A stretch of 64,000 nt of DNA from Achromobacter xylosoxidans. Lineage in GTDB: Bacteria > Pseudomonadota > Gammaproteobacteria > Burkholderiales > Burkholderiaceae_B. Location: NCBI RefSeq assembly GCF_001457475.1, contig NZ_LN831029.1:620001-684000 (forward strand), written 5' to 3'. A program made the position numbers and the translations under genes. Every line of letters begins with the position of its first letter. Position 1 is the stretch's first letter. Positions 46,231 to 56,471 of this stretch are shown here, one piece after another. The notes beneath the pieces are model-generated. The model did no database searches. It was given only the letters and a program-made list of their open reading frames with translations, and was not told the origin of the DNA.

Positions 46231-47319
46231 CTACTTGGCCGGGCGCGGGAACACCCACACCTTGCCGGCCGGCAGCGCCAGGCGGCAGGGGCCGGGTTCG
46301 CGGCCCTCGGGGCCGTAGGCGCGCAGCGCCAGGGTATTGGCCGGATCCGCGTCGGGGGTGCGGAACAGGTATTCCCAGCGGTCGCCCAGGTACATGCTGG
46401 TCAGCAGCGGCATGTCGATGTGGTTGCCGTCGGGGTCGTCCGCCAGGCGGACCTGTTCGACCCGGATCACGGCGGTGGCGTCCTGGCCCGCGGCCACGCC
46501 TTCGCCGGCCTGGCCCCACAGCGCCCAGCCGCGGCCCTCGATGCGGGCGCGGCCATCGCGCACTTCGGTGACCTTGCCGTCCAGGCGGTTGTTGCTGCCC
46601 ATGAACTCGGCGGTGAACAAGGTCTTGGGCGCGCCGTACATCTCCTGCGGCGTGCCCTGCTGTTCGATCTTGCCGTTGTTCAGCAGCAGGATGCGGTCGG
46701 AAATGGCCATGGCTTCGCTCTGGTCATGCGTCACCATCAACGCCGACAGGCCCAGGCGGATGATCAGCTCGCGCAGGAAGGCGCGGGCCTCCTCGCGCAG
46801 CTTGGCGTCCAGGTTGGACAGCGGCTCGTCCAGCAGGATCACGGGCGGGCTGTAAACCAGGGCGCGGCCGATGGCCACGCGCTGCTGCTGGCCGCCGGAC
46901 AGCGCGTGCGGATGGCGCTGGCCCAGCTTGCCCAGGCCGAGCTGGTCCAGCACCGCCTGCACGCGTTCGCGCACTTCGCCCGACGGCACCTTGCGCAGCT
47001 TGAGCGGGTAGGCGACGTTGTCGAACACGGTCTTGTGCGGCCACAGGGCATACGACTGAAACACCAGGCCGAGATTGCGCTCCTCGGCCGGGATCTCCTG
47101 GCGCGCGGCGCCGTCGTAGACGGTGCGATCGCCGATGGTGATGCGGCCGCGCTTGGGGCCTTCCAGGCCGGCCACGGCGCGCAGCAGGGTGGTCTTGCCG
47201 CTGCCCGAGGGGCCCAGCAGCGACACCACTTCGCCCTGGCGCAGTTGCATCGACACGCCCTTGAGCACCGGGTTGTCGCCGTAATCCAGGTGCAGGTCTT
47301 CTACAGAAAGCTCAATCAT
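46231..47319 (-). CDS. ferric/spermidine-type ABC transporter ATPase (FbpC-like)
   Basis: A 362-residue ATPase: Walker A GPSGSGKTT, Q-loop VFQSYALWPHKTVFDNVAYPL, signature [15 protein letters not shown], Walker B ILLDEPLSNLDAK and THDQSEAM. A TOBE/regulatory domain fills about 240-362. The FQSYALWPH string is seen in iron (Fbp) and related importers. It overlaps the permease by eight bases. Confidence 0.93.
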   Translation of the reverse strand: MIELSVEDLHLDYGDNPVLKGVSMQLRQGEVVSLLGPSGSGKTTLLRAVAGLEGPKRGRITIGDRTVYDGAARQEIPAEERNLGLVFQSYALWPHKTVFDNVAYPLKLRKVPSGEVRERVQAVLDQLGLGKLGQRHPHALSGGQQQRVAIGRALVYSPPVILLDEPLSNLDAKLREEARAFLRELIIRLGLSALMVTHDQSEAMAISDRILLLNNGKIEQQGTPQEMYGAPKTLFTAEFMGSNNRLDGKVTEVRDGRARIEGRGWALWGQAGEGVAAGQDATAVIRVEQVRLADDPDGNHIDMPLLTSMYLGDRWEYLFRTPDADPANTLALRAYGPEGREPGPCRLALPAGKVWVFPRPAK

Positions 47320-49090
47320 GAAGTTTGACTCCGAATCGCAGGGCGATGCCCAGGCCGATCACGACCAGAACGATATTGATGAAGGAAAGCGCGGCCACGA
47401 TGTCGATGGCGCCCGAGGCCCACAGCGACACCAGCATGGAGCCGATCGTCTCGGTGCCGGGCGATAGCAGGTAGACGCCGGTGGAGTATTCACGCTCGAA
47501 GATCAGGAACATCAGCAGCCACGAACCGATCAGGCCGTACTTGGCCAGCGGCACGGTGACGTGGCGCGTGACCTGGCCGCGGCGCGCGCCGGCGCTGCGG
47601 GCGGCTTCTTCCAGTTCGGGGCCGACCTGCAGCAGCGTCGACGAGATCAGCCGCAGGCCGTAGGCCATCCACACCACCGTGTAGGCCAGCCACACGCTGA
47701 AAATGGTGCTGCGCATGGCGCGCAGCCATTCGACGAAGTTCTCGCGCGCCCACTCGGCGAACGGCAGTCCCGACAGCCAGCCGCCCAGGTCGGCGTCGAG
47801 CGCGTTGTCCAGCCACATCGGCACGAACAGGAACACCCACAGGAAGGCCAGGCCCGCCAGCAGGCCGGGCACGGCGCGCGGCACCAGCACGCTGTAGTCC
47901 ATGAAGCGCGTGACGTTGTCCGGCTTGCGGTGCATGGCCAGGCCGACGAAGGTGTAGCAGATCACCGCCAGCGCGCCGCCGAACACGCCGATGGCCACCG
48001 AGTTGACGATCGCGCGCATCAGGTTGGGTTGCGAGAACACGGTGCGGAACGCGTCCAGCGACAGCACGTCGAACAGCGACACGCCCATGCCCCAGTTGGA
48101 CACGAAGGCGCGCAGCAGCACGCCCAGCAGCGGCACCACGATGGTGACCAGCAGCCAGAACGCCACCACGCCGCCGGCCACCCAGCGCCACTTGCCCAGC
48201 GGCAGCGGACGGGCGCGCGAGGCCTTGCCCTTGACGGTGACGAAGCGGTTGGCGGTGCGCATCAGGCGGCGCTGCAGCATGACCAGCGGAATCGTCATGC
48301 AGATCAGCACCACGGCCACCGCGGCCATCAGGTGGTACGAGGGGATGCCGAGCTTGTTGGTCAACTTGTACAGGTAGGTGGCCAGCACCAGGTTGCCTTC
48401 GGGGTCACCCAGCACCAGCACCAGGCCGAACACTTCCAGGCCCAGGAAGAACAGCAGCACGGTGGCGTACAGCATGGCCGGCCGCACCATCGGCAGGCTC
48501 ACCGACACCATCACGCGCAGCGGCGAGGCGCCGCTGACGCGCGCCGCCTCCTCGACGTCCGAGCCCATGCTGCGCAGCGCCGACGAAATGTACAGGTAGG
48601 CGTGCGGCACGTGCGTCAGGCCGGCGATGATGACGATGCTGGTCAGCGAATAGACGTTCCAGGGCACGAAGCCCAGGATGTTCTGCGCCCAGGTCGAGAA
48701 GAAGCCGACCGGGCCCGCCGCCACCACGTAGCCGAAGCCCAGCACCATTGGCGACACGAAGATCGGCACCAGGATCAGCGGTTCGATCCAGCGCCGGCCC
48801 GGCAGGTCGGTGCGGATCATCAGGAACGCCAGCATGCCGCCCAGCGGAATGGCGATGATGGCCAGCCCGAACGCCAGGATGAAGCCGCTTTTCAGCGCCT
48901 TGTAGAAATCGGGGTCCGCGAAGATGAAGCGGAACGCATCCAGGCTGAAGACCTTGGACGGCGTGAAGAAGGGCGCGGATAGAAAGCTCTGGATGATGAT
49001 GAACGACAGCGGCACGTAGATGGCCAAGGCTGTGATCAGCACCACCACGCCGCGTGGCAGGGACTGCCATTTTCTGCGCAATGACTGCAT
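47312..49090 (-). CDS. fused double permease of a ferric-type ABC importer (FbpB-like)
   Basis: A 592-residue membrane protein with two BPD_transp_1 halves and about twelve TM segments. EAA-type loops occur in both halves (EEAARVSGASPLRVMVSVSLP and EEAARSAGARRGQVTRHVTVP). The fusion of two permeases is usual for FbpB/AfuB transporters. It lies 148 bases after the binding-protein gene; the gap has GC-rich dyads but no T-run. Confidence 0.93.
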   Translation of the reverse strand: MQSLRRKWQSLPRGVVVLITALAIYVPLSFIIIQSFLSAPFFTPSKVFSLDAFRFIFADPDFYKALKSGFILAFGLAIIAIPLGGMLAFLMIRTDLPGRRWIEPLILVPIFVSPMVLGFGYVVAAGPVGFFSTWAQNILGFVPWNVYSLTSIVIIAGLTHVPHAYLYISSALRSMGSDVEEAARVSGASPLRVMVSVSLPMVRPAMLYATVLLFFLGLEVFGLVLVLGDPEGNLVLATYLYKLTNKLGIPSYHLMAAVAVVLICMTIPLVMLQRRLMRTANRFVTVKGKASRARPLPLGKWRWVAGGVVAFWLLVTIVVPLLGVLLRAFVSNWGMGVSLFDVLSLDAFRTVFSQPNLMRAIVNSVAIGVFGGALAVICYTFVGLAMHRKPDNVTRFMDYSVLVPRAVPGLLAGLAFLWVFLFVPMWLDNALDADLGGWLSGLPFAEWARENFVEWLRAMRSTIFSVWLAYTVVWMAYGLRLISSTLLQVGPELEEAARSAGARRGQVTRHVTVPLAKYGLIGSWLLMFLIFEREYSTGVYLLSPGTETIGSMLVSLWASGAIDIVAALSFINIVLVVIGLGIALRFGVKLHD

Positions 49091-49238: not shown

Positions 49239-50336
49239 TTACTTGCCGGCGGCGGCGCGCCAGTCCTTGATGAACTGCAGGCGCTTGTTCTGCTCCAGGT
49301 AGTCGAGCAGGGTCTCGTTGACCGGGATCGGCTTGAGCGAGGCGCCCAGCTTCTTGGTCATGCCGTCGACGTCGTTGTCGCCTTCGATGTCGTCGCGGAC
49401 CGAGGCCAGGTCGGCCTGGTTGGCCATGATTTCCTGGCCCTTCTGCGACAGCAGGTAGTCCATCCACAGCTTGGCGGCGTTGCGGTTCTTGGCCTTCTTG
49501 CTGATGAACGCCACGCGCGACAGCACCAGCGCGTAGTCGGTCGGATAGGCCACGCCCAGCGACGGGTCGGTCTTGGCGCGGGTCTCGGCGTACGAACCCA
49601 GGATGTTGTAGCCGACTAGGTTCTCGCCCGACGAGACGCGTTCCATCATGGTGCCGGTGGACGACTGCACGATCAGGCCGCCCTTGGCGATGTCCTTGAG
49701 CGTCTCGAAGTACTTGGGATCGTTGGCCTTGTCCTGCACCGCCAGCATGAAGCCCACGGCCGACTTCTCGATGTCGTAGGTGGTGACCTTGTTCTTGAAC
49801 TTGTCCGGCTGGCTGGCGATCAGCTTGGCCAGGGCGCCGTGCGTGGTCGGCACTTCGTTGGCCGGGATCAGGCGCTTGTTGTAGATGAACACAGCCGGTT
49901 CGTAGGTGGTGCCGTAGGCCGAATCCTTCCACACCGCCCAGGCCGGCAGCTTGCCGATCTCGGGCGACTTGTACTGCAGCGCGTAGTCGGTGGCCAGCTT
50001 GAGGGCCGAGTCCATCGACGAGCTCCAGACGATGTCGCCGCTGCTGCCGCCCGCCGCCTGCTCGCTGATGTAGCGGTTGTACAGCTCGGTGCTGTTCATG
50101 TCGTTGTATTCGACCTTGACGCCGGGATACAGCGCTTCGAAGCCCTTGATGATGGGGCCGGCCGCCTTGGTGTCGGTGGTCGAGTAGATCACGACCTTGC
50201 CTTCCTTCTTGGCGCCGTCGAGGATCTTCTGGTAGTCGGCCGGGTAGCCCGCGGGCACTTGCTGGGCGTAGGCGCTGCCGGCGGCGATGGCGAATGCTGC
50301 GGCGCAGGCGGCCGCCAGTCTGGACTTGGCAAGCAT
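49239..50336 (-). CDS. periplasmic substrate-binding protein, ferric-type (SBP_bac_1/Fbp-like)
   Basis: A 365-residue exported protein. The signal peptide ends at SAYA-QQ (about residue 24). The mature protein has KVVIYSTTDTKAAGPIIKGF, SSMDSALKLA, YEPAVFIYNKRLI and GYNILGSYAETRA. It clearly resembles the C-terminal domain of the histidine kinase upstream (AWAVW, YEPAV, TYDI, VGYNILGSYA, DYALVL at corresponding places). The ligand may be ferric iron or a small organic acid or phosphonate; family alone does not decide. Confidence 0.92.
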   Translation of the reverse strand: MLAKSRLAAACAAAFAIAAGSAYAQQVPAGYPADYQKILDGAKKEGKVVIYSTTDTKAAGPIIKGFEALYPGVKVEYNDMNSTELYNRYISEQAAGGSSGDIVWSSSMDSALKLATDYALQYKSPEIGKLPAWAVWKDSAYGTTYEPAVFIYNKRLIPANEVPTTHGALAKLIASQPDKFKNKVTTYDIEKSAVGFMLAVQDKANDPKYFETLKDIAKGGLIVQSSTGTMMERVSSGENLVGYNILGSYAETRAKTDPSLGVAYPTDYALVLSRVAFISKKAKNRNAAKLWMDYLLSQKGQEIMANQADLASVRDDIEGDNDVDGMTKKLGASLKPIPVNETLLDYLEQNKRLQFIKDWRAAAGK

Positions 50337-50533: not shown

Positions 50534-53020
50534 CTACGGCCGTTCGGGCGTGTCGGTGACCAGCCGGATCCAGTTCTGCACGAAGCGCGAATGGCGCCGC
50601 TGGTCCAGCCCCACCAGCAACGCCGGCGACAGCACCACCGGCTGCACGATGCCCTGCGAGCGCGCCAGCACCGCCTCGGAGGTCCAGCGGCCGGGCGTGT
50701 CCTCCATGATCGAGCCGAGCGCCGCGTGGCTGGACGCCACCTGCTGGCCGGCGGGCGACAGCAGCCAGTCGACCAGCGCGCGCCCCAGGTCGGGGTTGGG
50801 CGCGCGCCGCGCGATCAGCACCGAGCGCGCCAGCACCAGCACGTAGTCCTGCGGGAACACCACGCCGATTTTCGCGCCCGCCGCCTGGCGCGACAGGGCG
50901 TACGACCCGAGGATGTTGTAGCCCAGGTCCATCTCGTCGTTCTCGATGGCGTCCAGCAGTTCGGCGGTGGTGGCCGACAGCCGCACGCCGACCTGGCCGA
51001 AGGCGTTGGCCAGGCCCCAGAAGTTCGACGACACCAGCTCGTCCTGCTCGGCCATCAGGTAGCCCACGCTGCTGCGCGAGATATCGTAGGTGCCGACGCG
51101 GCCATGCAGGCGCGCGCGGTCCTGCTCCAGCGTGCGCAGCAGGTCCTGGCGCGAGCGCGGCACGGTGGCTTCGCTGTAGCGCTTGGGGTTGTAGACGATC
51201 ACCGCCGGCTCGAAAGTGAAGCCGTAGACCTCGTTGCGCCACACCGCCCACGATGGCAGCCGCGCGGCATAGGGAGAGGTGTAGCGCTGCGCGTAGCCGT
51301 CGTTGGCCAGGCGGATCTGCAGGTCCGAGGCCGAACTCATCAGCACGTCCACGTCCTTGAGGCGGTCCTCGATCGCCGCTTCGTACAGTTCGCGGCTGCC
51401 CATCTCGCGATAGACCACGGTGACGTCGGGCCGCTGCGCCTGGAAGCCGAGGATCAGCGGCGCCACCACCGGTGTGTCGGTGGGGCCGGCAATGGTCAGC
51501 ACGCGCGATGACGGCTGCGGCGCGGGATAGCGGGTGACGATCTCAGGGACCTCGGCGGCGCGCACGTCTGCCGGCGCGGCGGACAGCAGCAGGAACGCCG
51601 CGCCGACTACGCCTATCCATCCCGCCAGCCCGCGTCCCGTCCGCGGGCGCGCCAGCGGCAGGATGACGCGCGCCGACAGGCCGCCGCCGGACCGATCCTG
51701 CAGCCACAGCGAGCCGCCGTGCGCTACCGCGACCGATCGCACGATGGCCAGCCCGAGGCCCGAGCCGGGCTGCGATTCACCGGTGCGCCCGCGCGTGAAG
51801 CGTTGCTGCACGGCTTCCTTTTCATCGTCGGCGATGCCTGGGCCGCGGTCGGACACCGTCAGCGCCACGCGATACCCCGCCACCGGCGTCGCCTGGATGT
51901 CGACGTTGCCCTGCGGCGCATAACGCAGGGCATTGTCCACCAGGTTGCGCAGCATCTCGCGCAGCGCCACGCGATCGCCCGCGATGCGGGCACGGCGCAC
52001 CTCGGGGGCGATCTCGATGCGCAGGCGCTGCGCCTCCAGCGGTCCGATGCGGCGCCGGGTTTCGTTGATGGTCTCGGCCACGCCCACCGGCGCGCGCGCG
52101 CCCTTGCCCAGCCGGTGCGTGATGGTGGCGTCCATCAGCAGCTGGTTGATGAGCTGGCTGGCGTGGGTGGCATTCTGGTGGATGCGGCCCAGGCGCTCGT
52201 GCAGGCGCTTGGGGTCGGTTTCGTCCAGCGCCACTTCGGCCTGGGCGCGCAGCGAGGCCAACGGCGTGCGCACCTGGTGCGCGGCATCGGCAACCAGGGT
52301 GTTGAGGGTGTCCATGATGCCGGACAGGCGTTGCATGAAGGCGTTCAGGGCCTCGACCAGGCGCCGCACCTCGGTCGGCACCGGCGTGACCAGCGGCGCC
52401 AGGTCGTCCGGCGCCCGGTGCCGCAATTCGCCTTCGACCACGGCCAGCGGCGCGAAGGCGCGCTGCACGCCGAACCACAGCAGGCCCAGCGCGACCAGCG
52501 ACACCACGATCAGCGGCAGCACGCTGCGGCCCAGGATCTCGTCGGCCAGCTCCTCGCGCGAGCCCAGTGTCTCGGCCACGCGCACGGTGACCCAGCCGGC
52601 GTGCTGGCTGGCCGACACCAGCCGTCCCACCGTGGCCACGCGCACCGGCTCATCGTGATAGCGCAGATAGGCGAACACCGGCGTGGCCGACTGCGCCAGC
52701 GGCAGGCCGGGCGCCAGGTCGGCATAGCCGGTGATGAGCCGGCCGTTGGACGCGCGGGCTTCGTAGAACACCCGTTCGCTGCCCGACAGCATGGCCAGCG
52801 ACGATACCGGCGGTTCGACCGTGACGCCGTTGTCCTCGATCTGCACGGAACCGGCAATCGTCAGTGCCGACGCCGCCAGCAGCCGGTCGAAGGCCTGTTC
52901 GGCGGCGCGTTGGGCATAGTCGCGCAGGAAGAACACCAGCCCGATCAGCGCGCAGGCGAGCAATGCCGCGCCCAGCGTGAAGACGCGGCGGCGGATCGAG
53001 AAGCTGTCAGGCAGGGTCAT
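50534..53020 (-). CDS. histidine kinase with C-terminal periplasmic substrate-binding domain (fusion)
   Basis: An 828-residue fusion. Residues 14-32 TM1; about 33-165 a TctE-like periplasmic 2CSK_N domain; 166-190 TM2; a HAMP-like linker; phospho-acceptor His248 in ADAAHQVRTPLASL; N-box LRNLVDNALRYAP (358-370); G1 DRGPGI (391-396); G2 GSGLGLAI (419-426). A second export segment follows (about 463-490: basic RPRTGRG, hydrophobic GVVGAAFLLLSAA, then DVRAAE). Residues 495-828 are a ferric-type substrate-binding domain with SWAVW, FEPAVIVYN, TYDISRSSVG and GYNILGSYALSR, similar to the separate binding protein 197 bases downstream. The ATG at 53020 overlaps the response regulator by 14 bases. The kinase probably senses the transporter's ligand directly. 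Confidence 0.9.
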   Translation of the reverse strand: MTLPDSFSIRRRVFTLGAALLACALIGLVFFLRDYAQRAAEQAFDRLLAASALTIAGSVQIEDNGVTVEPPVSSLAMLSGSERVFYEARASNGRLITGYADLAPGLPLAQSATPVFAYLRYHDEPVRVATVGRLVSASQHAGWVTVRVAETLGSREELADEILGRSVLPLIVVSLVALGLLWFGVQRAFAPLAVVEGELRHRAPDDLAPLVTPVPTEVRRLVEALNAFMQRLSGIMDTLNTLVADAAHQVRTPLASLRAQAEVALDETDPKRLHERLGRIHQNATHASQLINQLLMDATITHRLGKGARAPVGVAETINETRRRIGPLEAQRLRIEIAPEVRRARIAGDRVALREMLRNLVDNALRYAPQGNVDIQATPVAGYRVALTVSDRGPGIADDEKEAVQQRFTRGRTGESQPGSGLGLAIVRSVAVAHGGSLWLQDRSGGGLSARVILPLARPRTGRGLAGWIGVVGAAFLLLSAAPADVRAAEVPEIVTRYPAPQPSSRVLTIAGPTDTPVVAPLILGFQAQRPDVTVVYREMGSRELYEAAIEDRLKDVDVLMSSASDLQIRLANDGYAQRYTSPYAARLPSWAVWRNEVYGFTFEPAVIVYNPKRYSEATVPRSRQDLLRTLEQDRARLHGRVGTYDISRSSVGYLMAEQDELVSSNFWGLANAFGQVGVRLSATTAELLDAIENDEMDLGYNILGSYALSRQAAGAKIGVVFPQDYVLVLARSVLIARRAPNPDLGRALVDWLLSPAGQQVASSHAALGSIMEDTPGRWTSEAVLARSQGIVQPVVLSPALLVGLDQRRHSRFVQNWIRLVTDTPERP

Positions 53021-53678
53021 GGCTGCGGGCCTGGTAGCCGACGCCGCGCACGGTGACGATATCGATGGAGGCGCCGGCCAGTTTCTTGCGCAGGCGCGAG
53101 ATCAGCAGTTCCAGCGCGTTGAGGGAACCGTCGTCCAGGTCGAACAGCTGGTTCATGAGCCGTTCCTTGGCCACGGTCTGGCCCAGCTTGCCCAGCAGGA
53201 TCTCCAGCAGCCGGAACTCGCGCCGGCCCAGTTCCAGCGGCGCGCCGGCCAGCGTGACGTGGCGATTGGCCAGGTCCAGGCTCAGGTTGCCGTAGGCGGT
53301 GACGCTGCTGGTCTGCCCGGCCGGGCGCCGCAGCAGGGCGCGCAGCCGCGCTTCGAGTTCGCGCAGGTCGAAGGGCTTGACGAGATAGTCGTCGGCGCCC
53401 AGGTCGAGCATGTCGATCTTGTCTTCGATTTCGGAACGGGCGGTCATGACCAGCACGGGCGCTTCCAGCCCGGCGGCGCGCAACTCGCGGATGACGCTGA
53501 AGCCGTCCTTGCCGGGCAGGTTGATGTCCAGCACCAGCGCATCCCATGTTTCGTCCAGCCCCCAGCGCAACGCGGCGACGCCGTCGCGCACCCATTGCAC
53601 GCTATGGCCCGCCGAACGCAGTTTGCTCTCCACGGCATCGCCCAGGTCGAGGTTGTCCTCGACCAGCAGAATGCGCAT
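53007..53678 (-). CDS. OmpR/PhoB-family response regulator (TctD-like)
   Basis: A 223-residue regulator: receiver domain with VEDN near the start, phospho-acceptor Asp51 in LVLDINLPGKDGF, T in VMTARS and K in YLVKPFDLRELEAR; C-terminal winged helix (GRREFRLLEILLGKLGQTV, LMNQLFDLDDGSLNALELLISRLRKK). The ATG at 53678, behind GGAGGAC, starts the receiver exactly. Together with the kinase it should control the importer genes downstream. Confidence 0.93.
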   Translation of the reverse strand: MRILLVEDNLDLGDAVESKLRSAGHSVQWVRDGVAALRWGLDETWDALVLDINLPGKDGFSVIRELRAAGLEAPVLVMTARSEIEDKIDMLDLGADDYLVKPFDLRELEARLRALLRRPAGQTSSVTAYGNLSLDLANRHVTLAGAPLELGRREFRLLEILLGKLGQTVAKERLMNQLFDLDDGSLNALELLISRLRKKLAGASIDIVTVRGVGYQARSHDPA

Positions 53679-53772
53679 GTCCGTCCTCCGATATCGATTG
53701 TGATTTTTTCGGGAGTTTAACGGGAGGCTTTGGTGCTGTCGCTGTCGGAGGGGGTGTGGTGTTCTTTTGGCC

Positions 53773-53940
53773 GCCCGTGGCGTCGGCGGCCGGTGGGGCG
53801 CGGGGCTACGATTGCGGTCCGGAGCCTTCGCTCCGGACTGCCCCTTCGTCATCCTCGTTGCCGCCTGCCGGCGGCTGCCTTCGGATTCCCTCGGGCGCAT
53901 CTACACGCCCCGCGCCCCACCGGCCGCCGACGCCACGGGC
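53773..53940 (+). repeat. type 1 variable-arm inverted repeat (copy E)
   Basis: Perfect 34-base arms at 53773-53806 and 53907-53940. Only the inner few bases (GGGGC and GCCCC) resemble the arms of copies A-D, yet the arms pair perfectly; the core with TCCGGAGC and GCTCCGGA is the common one. Confidence 0.9.
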
Positions 53941-54031
53941 TACAGCGTGATCACTTCACCGGCGCGGGGGCGAATCGTGTGCTTGGCGTTTTGGTGGAAG
54001 ATCTAGTCGGGACGGAAGATTTTGCGGGGCC

Positions 54032-54065
54032 GCCAAAACCGGCCGCGCGGGCGGCCGGTTTTGGC
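54032..54065 (+). repeat. GC hairpin, class 2 (copy E)
   Basis: A perfect 15-base stem: GCCAAAACC and GGTTTTGGC arms around the core GGCCGCGCGGGCGGCC (four-base loop GCGG), preceded by TGCGGGGC. Confidence 0.9.
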
Positions 54066-54330
54066 ATTTAGGGGGAGGTCGGGCGAGATGCGGAGGAATC
54101 GGTGAGGCAATGCCAGAGGTGTTCCGCTTGGAGGAATCCGGGATGCATCGCCAAGCATCTTCCCCGTCAGCCGTTCTTCCTCAGATCAGGCGCGCGCCAA
54201 GCCCGTCACGCACACGCCAGCCCCCATCGCGCGCCGCCACTCTCCTCCCCCCGACTGGACGGCACCCCAAGCAAGCAACCCGTCACCCGCGCGCAGCGCC
54301 AACGCGCCAAGCCAAGACACCGCGTAAGTT

Positions 54331-54496
54331 GCGGGCGGCCGCCCGGGCGGCGGGCAACCTCGATGCGCCCGACGGAATCCGAAGGCAGCCGCCGGCAGGC
54401 GGCAACGAGGATGAGGCAGGGGGGGGCCGCCGAGGCCAGTCCGGAGCGAACGCTCCGGACCGCAATCGTGGGCGCCCGCCGCCCGGGCCGCCTGCC
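54331..54496 (-). repeat. type 2-like inverted repeat (copy F)
   Basis: Arms pair perfectly over 15 bases (54341-54355 with 54474-54488) and imperfectly beyond. The core is the usual one, inverted, but the arm sequence is new and richer in CCGGGCGG. Confidence 0.8.
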
Positions 54497-54563
54497 AGAC
54501 GGGCGGCCTAAGAAAGCCCCCCGCCGCCAGCAGAAACAACCCAGCGACAAGCCAAATGCCGCC

Positions 54564-56471
54564 CTAAGCAGCAGCCTCTTCAGCCGCCGGCCCCACCTGC
54601 CCCACATACCGGCAATCCAGCTCCAGCGACAACTCATCCATCCCCAGAATCTCCACCTCCACCGCCGTCCCGCGCTCCAGCTCGGGCATCCCCCCGATCC
54701 GGGTGACGAGCGGGCAGTTGGCGAAGCGCACCAGGTCTTCGCGCAGCACGTGCGCCACGGTGCGGGTGATGTTGTGCTGCTTGAGCCAGCGCAGGCACCA
54801 GTAGCGCTCCATCGCGCTCTGGAACTCGGCCCAGGCCGCGTACTGCGCGTCGAACGCGCCGATGATCGCGAACAGATCCGCGTCGCGCGGTTTGAAGGGA
54901 GCCACCAGGCGCGCCGAGACGCCGTGCTCGACGGCGGCGATCAGCTGCCACTGGTTCACCAGGTCGACGTAGCGGCGCAGCGGCGACGTGCTCCAGGCGT
55001 ACTGCGGCACGCCGATGGCCTCGTGCGGCAGCGCCTGGGTGCTCATGCGCACACGGCCGGCCTGTTGCGAGCGGTAGATGCCCGGCACGCCGTGCTGGTT
55101 CAGCAGGCCGCCCCACAGGTTATTGGCCAGGATCATGTACTCGGCCACCATCCGGTCCAGCGGCGCGTTGCGCTGGCGCGGCACCAGGCGCACCGGGGTG
55201 TCGGGATCGTCGGGGTCGCCGTCCAGGTAGAAGCTGTACTCCACCCGCGAATTGTTCTCGGGCTTGCCGCGCACGTTCTCGCGCTGCGCCGACAAGGCCT
55301 GCGCCAGCTTCCACAGCGGGCGCAGCCAGTGGCCGTAGGGCAGGTCAGTGGAAGTGTCGTTCAGGCTGTCTTCGGTGACCTGGGCGTCCAGCATGTTGTG
55401 GCGCAGGTTTTCGCGCACCACCACGCGCTCCAGGCGCGTGTCGGATTCGATGACCTCGCCGGTCTCCGGGTTGGCCACCACGTACAGCGACAGCACCGGC
55501 ACCTCGCGGCCCGCGTCCAGCGAGAAGGCCTTGATGACGTTGTCGGGCTGCATCGGGATCTTGTCGCCCGGCATGTAGACCGTGGACAGACGCGCGCGCG
55601 CCAGCTTGTCGAATTCGCTGTCGCGCGTCACCGTCAGGCCGGGCGCGGCCACGTGGATGCCGACGCGCAGGTTGCCGTCGGGCAGGGTGGAAACCGACAG
55701 GGCGTCGTCGATCTCGGTGGTGGTGACGTCGTCGACCGAATAGATCTCGGCGTCCGACAGCGGCAGTTCGCGGTCGATCGGCGGCAGTTCCAGCTCGGGA
55801 AAGGCCAGGCCCCGGGGAAAGTTCACCGCCAGGAAGCGGCGCTTGTGCAGCGCCAGGGCGTGCGGCCAGGCGCCCAGTTCCAGCAACAGGCGGTCGGGGC
55901 TCTTGCCGAGCCTGGCGCAGGCGGCGTCCAGCGCCTTCCATTGCTGCGAATTCTTGTCGGGCCGGATCAACAGCGATTCGGCGACCTGGGCGATGGGCTC
56001 GGGCAGGCGGCCGGCGGCCATCTCGTCCACCCATTCCTGCTGCTGCTCGGCCTGGCGCTGTTTCTTTTCCAGCGCGGCCAGGGCGGCGGCCAGGATGTCG
56101 GGCGGGGCAGGGCGGTAACTGCCCTTGCCGCGGCGGTGGAAATAGGCGGGCGCGCCATGCAGGCGCATCAACAGGGCGGCCTGCTCGACCGGGGTGGGGG
56201 CGTGGCCGAAATAGTCGGCCGCCAGGGCCGGGGACTCGAATTCCTCCTGGGGCGCGCATTCCCACAGGAATTGCAGGTCCAGGGTTTCGGCCAGCGCGGC
56301 CGCCTGGGCCATCAGCGCGGCGGGTTCGGGCGCGGCGAAATTGAACAGCGTATTGGCGCGCTTGATCTTGCTGCGCTTGCCCGACTCCGACTCCACCTGG
56401 AGGCTGGCGTCGGTTTCGGACAGGATATGGCCGGCCTTGAAGCTGCCGTCGTCTTCGTAAAACACATACAT
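54564..56471 (-). CDS. RNase II/RNB-family exoribonuclease
   Basis: A 635-residue 3'-5' exoribonuclease-family protein. The RNB catalytic region has DDVTTTEIDDALSVS (Asp cluster), HVAAPGLTV, YMPGDKIPMQP and QYAWSTSPLRRYVDLVNQWQL near the end of the domain; an S1-like C-terminal part follows (GTAVEVEILGMDELSLELD). It degrades single-stranded RNA. The 3' end abuts a composite repeat and the sequence there is C-rich on the plus strand. Confidence 0.92.
   Translation of the reverse strand: MYVFYEDDGSFKAGHILSETDASLQVESESGKRSKIKRANTLFNFAAPEPAALMAQAAALAETLDLQFLWECAPQEEFESPALAADYFGHAPTPVEQAALLMRLHGAPAYFHRRGKGSYRPAPPDILAAALAALEKKQRQAEQQQEWVDEMAAGRLPEPIAQVAESLLIRPDKNSQQWKALDAACARLGKSPDRLLLELGAWPHALALHKRRFLAVNFPRGLAFPELELPPIDRELPLSDAEIYSVDDVTTTEIDDALSVSTLPDGNLRVGIHVAAPGLTVTRDSEFDKLARARLSTVYMPGDKIPMQPDNVIKAFSLDAGREVPVLSLYVVANPETGEVIESDTRLERVVVRENLRHNMLDAQVTEDSLNDTSTDLPYGHWLRPLWKLAQALSAQRENVRGKPENNSRVEYSFYLDGDPDDPDTPVRLVPRQRNAPLDRMVAEYMILANNLWGGLLNQHGVPGIYRSQQAGRVRMSTQALPHEAIGVPQYAWSTSPLRRYVDLVNQWQLIAAVEHGVSARLVAPFKPRDADLFAIIGAFDAQYAAWAEFQSAMERYWCLRWLKQHNITRTVAHVLREDLVRFANCPLVTRIGGMPELERGTAVEVEILGMDELSLELDCRYVGQVGPAAEEAAA

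Follow-up and report, generated by a model that had tools for sequence, protein, structure and literature searches.

Several sensor kinases are known to depend on a solute-binding protein (SBP). In three-component SBP-kinase-regulator systems, the ligand is signalled to the kinase by an SBP in the periplasm or outside the cell, and CuaDSR, one of these, uses different SBPs for sensing and transport (PMC10384115, PMC9602780, PMC5812351). XylFII-LytS is a further SBP-kinase system, known to us from a cited title only. BctCBA/BctDE of Bordetella pertussis and Tct likewise combine a two-component pair with an SBP, with citrate as the signal (PMC5812351). In BvgS and EvgS, SBP-fold (Venus-flytrap) domains stand in the kinase chain itself, as its periplasmic sensor region (PMC8534201). 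Here we describe a minus-strand locus in a 64,000-nucleotide stretch of Achromobacter xylosoxidans DNA (assembly GCF_001457475.1, contig NZ_LN831029.1, positions 620,001 to 684,000; the window), taken from a genome of 6.8 Mb in one contig. In this locus a single open reading frame joins a TctE-like sensor kinase to an MctA-like SBP.

The three-component pattern is present in that the SBP is encoded with the kinase and is distinct from the transport SBP. However, the SBPs of CuaDSR and BctC-BctE are separate genes, whereas here there is one frame with an internal, signal-peptide-like junction and an SBP of the MctA type. As in BvgS and EvgS, an SBP-fold domain shares the kinase chain, but here it comes after the ATPase domain, behind a new export signal. 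The FbcH cytochrome b/c1 precursor of Bradyrhizobium is said to give two proteins from one gene, cut at an internal signal by signal peptidase, and reportedly serves a respiratory complex rather than a signalling pair; we found no confirmation of this. No C-terminal kinase-SBP fusion was found in the literature searched, which covered few subscription papers and partly best matches only, or in the available parts of PMC8534201, PMC9602780, PMC10384115 and PMC5812351. PMC4618731 tabulates Azospirillum kinases with an SBP_bac_1 input domain; because its available part does not state the layout, it could hold a related case. Within the literature searched, then, the mode of sensing is known, and no single gene with the SBP placed behind the ATPase domain was found.

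The frame reads 828 aa on the minus strand, and the plus-strand translation contains a stop. Its parts, with TM1 and TM2 as transmembrane segments, are:

50534..53020, minus strand: fused gene for a TctE-like sensor kinase, a signal-peptide-like junction and an MctA-like SBP, 828 aa
51650..53020, minus strand: kinase half, residues 1-457, with TM1 (~13-32), 2CSK_N (23-162), TM2 (~167-186), HisKA (239-301, His248) and HATPase_c (348-457), assigned from Pfam, hydrophobic segments and the invariant H248
51557..51649, minus strand: junction, residues 458-488, with a basic n-region, a hydrophobic core (465-479) and a predicted signal peptidase I site after A488
50537..51556, minus strand: solute-binding half, residues 489-828, MctA/3c9h-like

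An earlier, sequence-only reading of this DNA had proposed that one frame links the kinase, with HisKA His248 and HATPase_c, to a complete SBP, with a second export segment in between, and the analysis bears this out. In Pfam, 2CSK_N (E 1e-33), HisKA and HATPase_c all scored above cut-off, as did SBP_bac_11/1/6/8 at residues ~510-764 (E 4e-15 to 2e-7). A third hydrophobic segment of 15 aa follows HATPase_c. The three kinase domains, the phospho-acceptor His, which is invariant across 32 aligned fused proteins, and an adjoining OmpR-type regulator gene identify a TctE/2CSK_N sensor kinase. Its H-box (52262-52279) reads H-Q-V-R-T-P, with H, Q, R, T and P invariant in the same 32 proteins; many kinases have Glu directly after the phospho-acceptor His, where this one has Gln. 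In NCBIfam, no TctE model was among the 25 of 73 matches listed for the kinase (the best was QseC, 158.3 bits vs 475), and the regulator reached 204.8 bits against the TctD equivalog, below the cut-off of 337.

The fusion is conserved. In a family sample of 121 genomes from 43 genera, 26 had a match to the SBP half (E <= 1e-25), and 20 of these, from 9 genera, encode the kinase and the SBP in a single open frame (824-1140 aa), with SBP halves diverging to 44% within the family. Among 29 loci from named close relatives, the whole fused frame was present in 27 (26 Achromobacter and one Bordetella pseudohinzii); the remaining two (L086 and L087) hold one half only, and their contigs end there. 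A stop or frameshift at residues 458-495, which would have pointed to two separate genes, was not seen in the 20 family genomes or the 27 named loci. A TAA inside the match of one of the 20 genomes (G076) is, by its coordinates, the gene's own end stop (frame end 1504 of L048, match end 1501). The closest named relatives among the matches listed are Achromobacter, and Alcaligenes and others also appear among the best 120 of 993 proteins. Outside the family, none of 82 distinct genomes with a match (order 24, phylum 59, class 9) was fused by frame length, most being judged by the length of the SBP frame (at most 657 aa). Three candidates with longer frames, G287 (944 aa), G572 (938) and G772 (993), were rejected because the kinase lies in another frame. 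Since only the best few candidates per genome were scored, rare fusions outside the family may exist.

To characterize the junction, we used 28 fused representatives of <80% identity. They came from a pool of 233 fused sequences that was selected by length and includes repeats, and so is uninformative on how often the frame is broken. After HATPase_c, most of the 28 begin with basic residues, continue with a short hydrophobic core and end in an A-x-A-like site; judged by eye, Ala occupies -1 in every one. Among 157 distinct junctions aligned, 153 have Ala at -1, making this the best conserved column of 456-495; V, A, L, S or T stands at -3 in 156, and -2 is mixed. The conserved site in the window is V-R-A/A, the slash marking the predicted cut after A488.

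Cleavability was scored with a matrix trained on 47 signal peptides, with hand-set sites, from two other SBP families of the same genome; of 56 candidates, 9 had been removed because they were wrong frames or lipoproteins. The cut was placed at the 5th percentile of the 47 peptides. Left-out sites were recovered in 42 of 47 cases. The cut was reached by 22 of 28 junctions; among the transmembrane segments of these kinases it was reached by TM1 in 6 of 28 and by TM2 in 3 of 28 (junction vs TM1, p 9e-5; two TM1 rows, L034 and L039, come from cut loci that lack the TM1 start). The median hydrophobic core was 14.5 aa for the junctions and 14 aa for the signal peptides, vs 20 and 19 aa for TM1 and TM2. 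The free SBPs of split modules, described below, passed in 16 of 21 cases, their starts having been picked partly by the same score. A first matrix, from unsupervised training, was discarded; it had shifted onto the Ala-rich hydrophobic core and gave TM1 the top score. The AlphaFold2 model has a low-confidence, 14-residue helix at 465-478; because the model is middling overall (predicted local distance difference test 75, predicted template modelling score 0.44), the domain arrangement was not read from it. The scores and the -1 Ala fit a polyprotein cut by signal peptidase I, with an internal signal peptide and a -3,-1 site. Because the junction scores as a cleavable signal peptide, the SBP half is probably released from the kinase by a cut at this site, rather than remaining covalently attached as the sequence-only reading had it.

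On the minus strand the order is response regulator, fused gene, free SBP, double permease and ABC (ATP-binding cassette) ATPase:

53007..53678, minus strand: TctD/OmpR-type response regulator, start MRILLVEDN
49239..50336, minus strand: free SBP of the importer, MctA-like, with a signal-peptide-like N-terminal start
47312..49090, minus strand: double permease of the ABC importer (BPD_transp_1)
46231..47319, minus strand: ABC ATPase of the importer

The regulator gene and the kinase start share a 14-nt overlap. In the 197-nt gap ahead of the importer SBP gene, we found no promoter-like or terminator-like site (fold z -1.1), and no tRNA gene was found upstream. Large inverted repeats (104 nt at 78%, 78 nt at 81% and 34 nt at 100% complementarity) lie at 53766-54511, in the interval that separates the regulator gene from an RNB-domain gene (54564-56471, minus strand); they may be a palindromic repeat element.

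The SBP half appears closer to the metal-citrate protein MctA than to ferric-binding proteins, and the label "ferric-type", given from the sequence alone, is not supported. Besides the fold, it resembles MctA at the residues mutated in the PDB (7f6e series: S26, D28, S79, S164, T199 and Y221): D515, S563, S650, T685 and Y707 stand at positions of that series, and S26 is Pro here. The MctA facts were drawn from PDB titles and sequences, as no MctA paper was found; the PDB lists MctA as an ABC-transporter SBP, and it is unattached to a kinase. The MctA ligand positions are common to the fused SBP and the adjoining importer's own SBP, which are ~33% identical. Both match SBP_bac_11/8/6/1, and neither matches PF03401 (TctC family) at E <= 0.001. 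We predict from this similarity that the fused SBP binds citrate or metal-citrate. The SBP of BctCBA/BctDE, in contrast, belongs to the TctC (PF03401) family and doubles as the transport SBP, whereas here a different SBP family is accompanied by an ABC importer. The A. xylosoxidans genome has 108 TctC/Bug SBP family matches vs only 6 TctA permease matches.

Outside these fusions, regulator, kinase and SBP commonly occur as three individual genes in that order. Of 21 distinct same-strand split pairs for which the SBP start could be set, 18 have a kinase stop that overlaps it (L052, L148 and L164 had no usable start; repeats and L147 were filtered). A. xylosoxidans itself has a split copy, L095. 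Within the genome, its kinase (42%) and SBP (41%) match the two fused halves best; the fused SBP half scores 203 bits against this SBP and 195 against the importer SBP. The split genes (L095:7349-12407, within G000:C1:1426000-1442000) lie divergent to the gene for a CitMHS citrate transporter. Trees were built for 82 SBPs and for 56 kinases (quick search, with support from the Shimodaira-Hasegawa-like approximate likelihood ratio test only); the fused members form one clade with support of 100, both among the SBPs (27 rows) and among the kinases. The importer-type SBPs, labelled partly by score, lie behind another branch (99; 28 rows plus 2 regulator-divergent SBPs). The fused SBP is thus not a recent duplicate of the importer SBP, and the suggestion that the kinase carries its own copy of the ligand receptor is to that extent not supported. 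Because deep branching between the SBP groups is weak, only a recent copy is excluded. The simplest reading of these sequences is one fusion of two overlapping genes, followed by vertical descent.

Six of 38 modules have no transporter of the three kinds nearby (L148, L149, L151, L153, L223 and L229); L229 is near a contig end, the L153 locus is only 10 kb, and the SBPs of L149, L151 and L153 fall on the importer side of the SBP tree. In another family of the order (L157:3034-9205), an MctA-like importer is divergent from a regulator-kinase pair, and a sensory SBP gene was not found alongside; there the importer SBP itself may report to the kinase.

Reading the fusion, its conservation, the signal-peptide features, the conserved ligand site and the gene order from the sequence, we infer cleavage, ligand, docking and direction of regulation as follows. 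A citrate-type sensory module, with an OmpR/TctD-like regulator, a 2CSK_N kinase and a dedicated sensory SBP, would have had its kinase and SBP genes fused in this family, most simply once. The kinase would insert by TM1 and TM2, leaving its catalytic part in the cytoplasm, and the segment after HATPase_c would act as an internal Sec signal peptide that exports the SBP half. Signal peptidase I would cut after A488, releasing the SBP into the periplasm 1:1 with the kinase. Loaded with citrate or metal-citrate, the SBP would dock on the 2CSK_N sensor domain and alter kinase output, and the regulator would control the downstream MctA-like ABC importer operon, which contains the whole set. We consider such a three-component module, with a receptor that is cut free and docks, rather probable. 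It is the scheme reported for CuaDSR and BctC/BctE, with the addition of a kinase:SBP ratio fixed by the frame.

Several observations weigh against this proposal. The junctions score below the training signal peptides (p 0.003), with 6 of 28 under the cut, and the matrix's top site in the window is SAAPA/DV rather than the conserved VRA/AE. The A-x-A rule guided the hand-setting of the training sites, and cleavage score partly decided the split-SBP starts, so that both positive sets lean towards passing; moreover, the 157 junctions come mostly from close relatives. MctA S26 is replaced by Pro in 23 of 27 fused SBPs. Finally, TctE-type kinases are often near TctA even without such an SBP, so that a nearby TctA is evidence for the kinase no less than for the SBP.

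Alternatively, the junction could be a third transmembrane anchor, and the attached SBP could activate the kinase in cis or within a dimer. The single frame has persisted through much divergence (the 28 representatives are <80% identical, and SBP halves fall to 44% in the family), which goes beyond what co-expression alone would demand, and a core of 14-15 residues can sometimes span a membrane. A linker of widely varying length follows the hydrophobic segment and is longest in P0187, where an Ala/Pro/Ser/Thr-rich insert of ~75 residues separates the SBP from the predicted cleavage site. However, the core is shorter than the transmembrane segments of the same proteins, the -1 Ala is the most conserved junction column while its surroundings change, and the SBP is a separate protein in the split homologues. 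We regard a tethered receptor as unlikely, if still a serious competitor. Much less probable is that the SBP half is a second binding protein for the adjacent importer, with no signalling role and a fusion that serves only co-expression. The importer SBP gene does adjoin the fused gene in 20 of 20 fused family genomes, and both SBPs share the ligand positions, but the importer has its own SBP, on a separate tree branch, and related SBPs are encoded with kinases next to CitMHS and 2HCT transporters, which are not known to use an SBP. An artefact of gene calling or assembly has next to no chance, given the same unbroken frame in 20 genomes (9 genera) and 27 separately sequenced named genomes.

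Kinases assisted by an SBP are familiar; in our judgement, the way in which a cell matches the amount of a sensory SBP to that of its kinase is much less so. The fused gene points to a kinase-linked citrate SBP that is widespread, and no description of it was found among the literature matches listed. We put at about even the chance that one gene yields a kinase and its private periplasmic receptor, 1:1, in a citrate lineage beside four unrelated transporter types (ABC, TctA, CitMHS and 2HCT). Because the join resembles an export signal that can be cut, the gene probably makes the two as a matched pair, and if the cut takes place, their balance would be set by one frame and one protease cut. 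With one split and one fused homologue in the same genome, tethering vs stoichiometry becomes directly testable. The automatic names "extracellular solute-binding protein" and "histidine kinase" hide what may be a two-product gene in Achromobacter, Bordetella and Alcaligenes.
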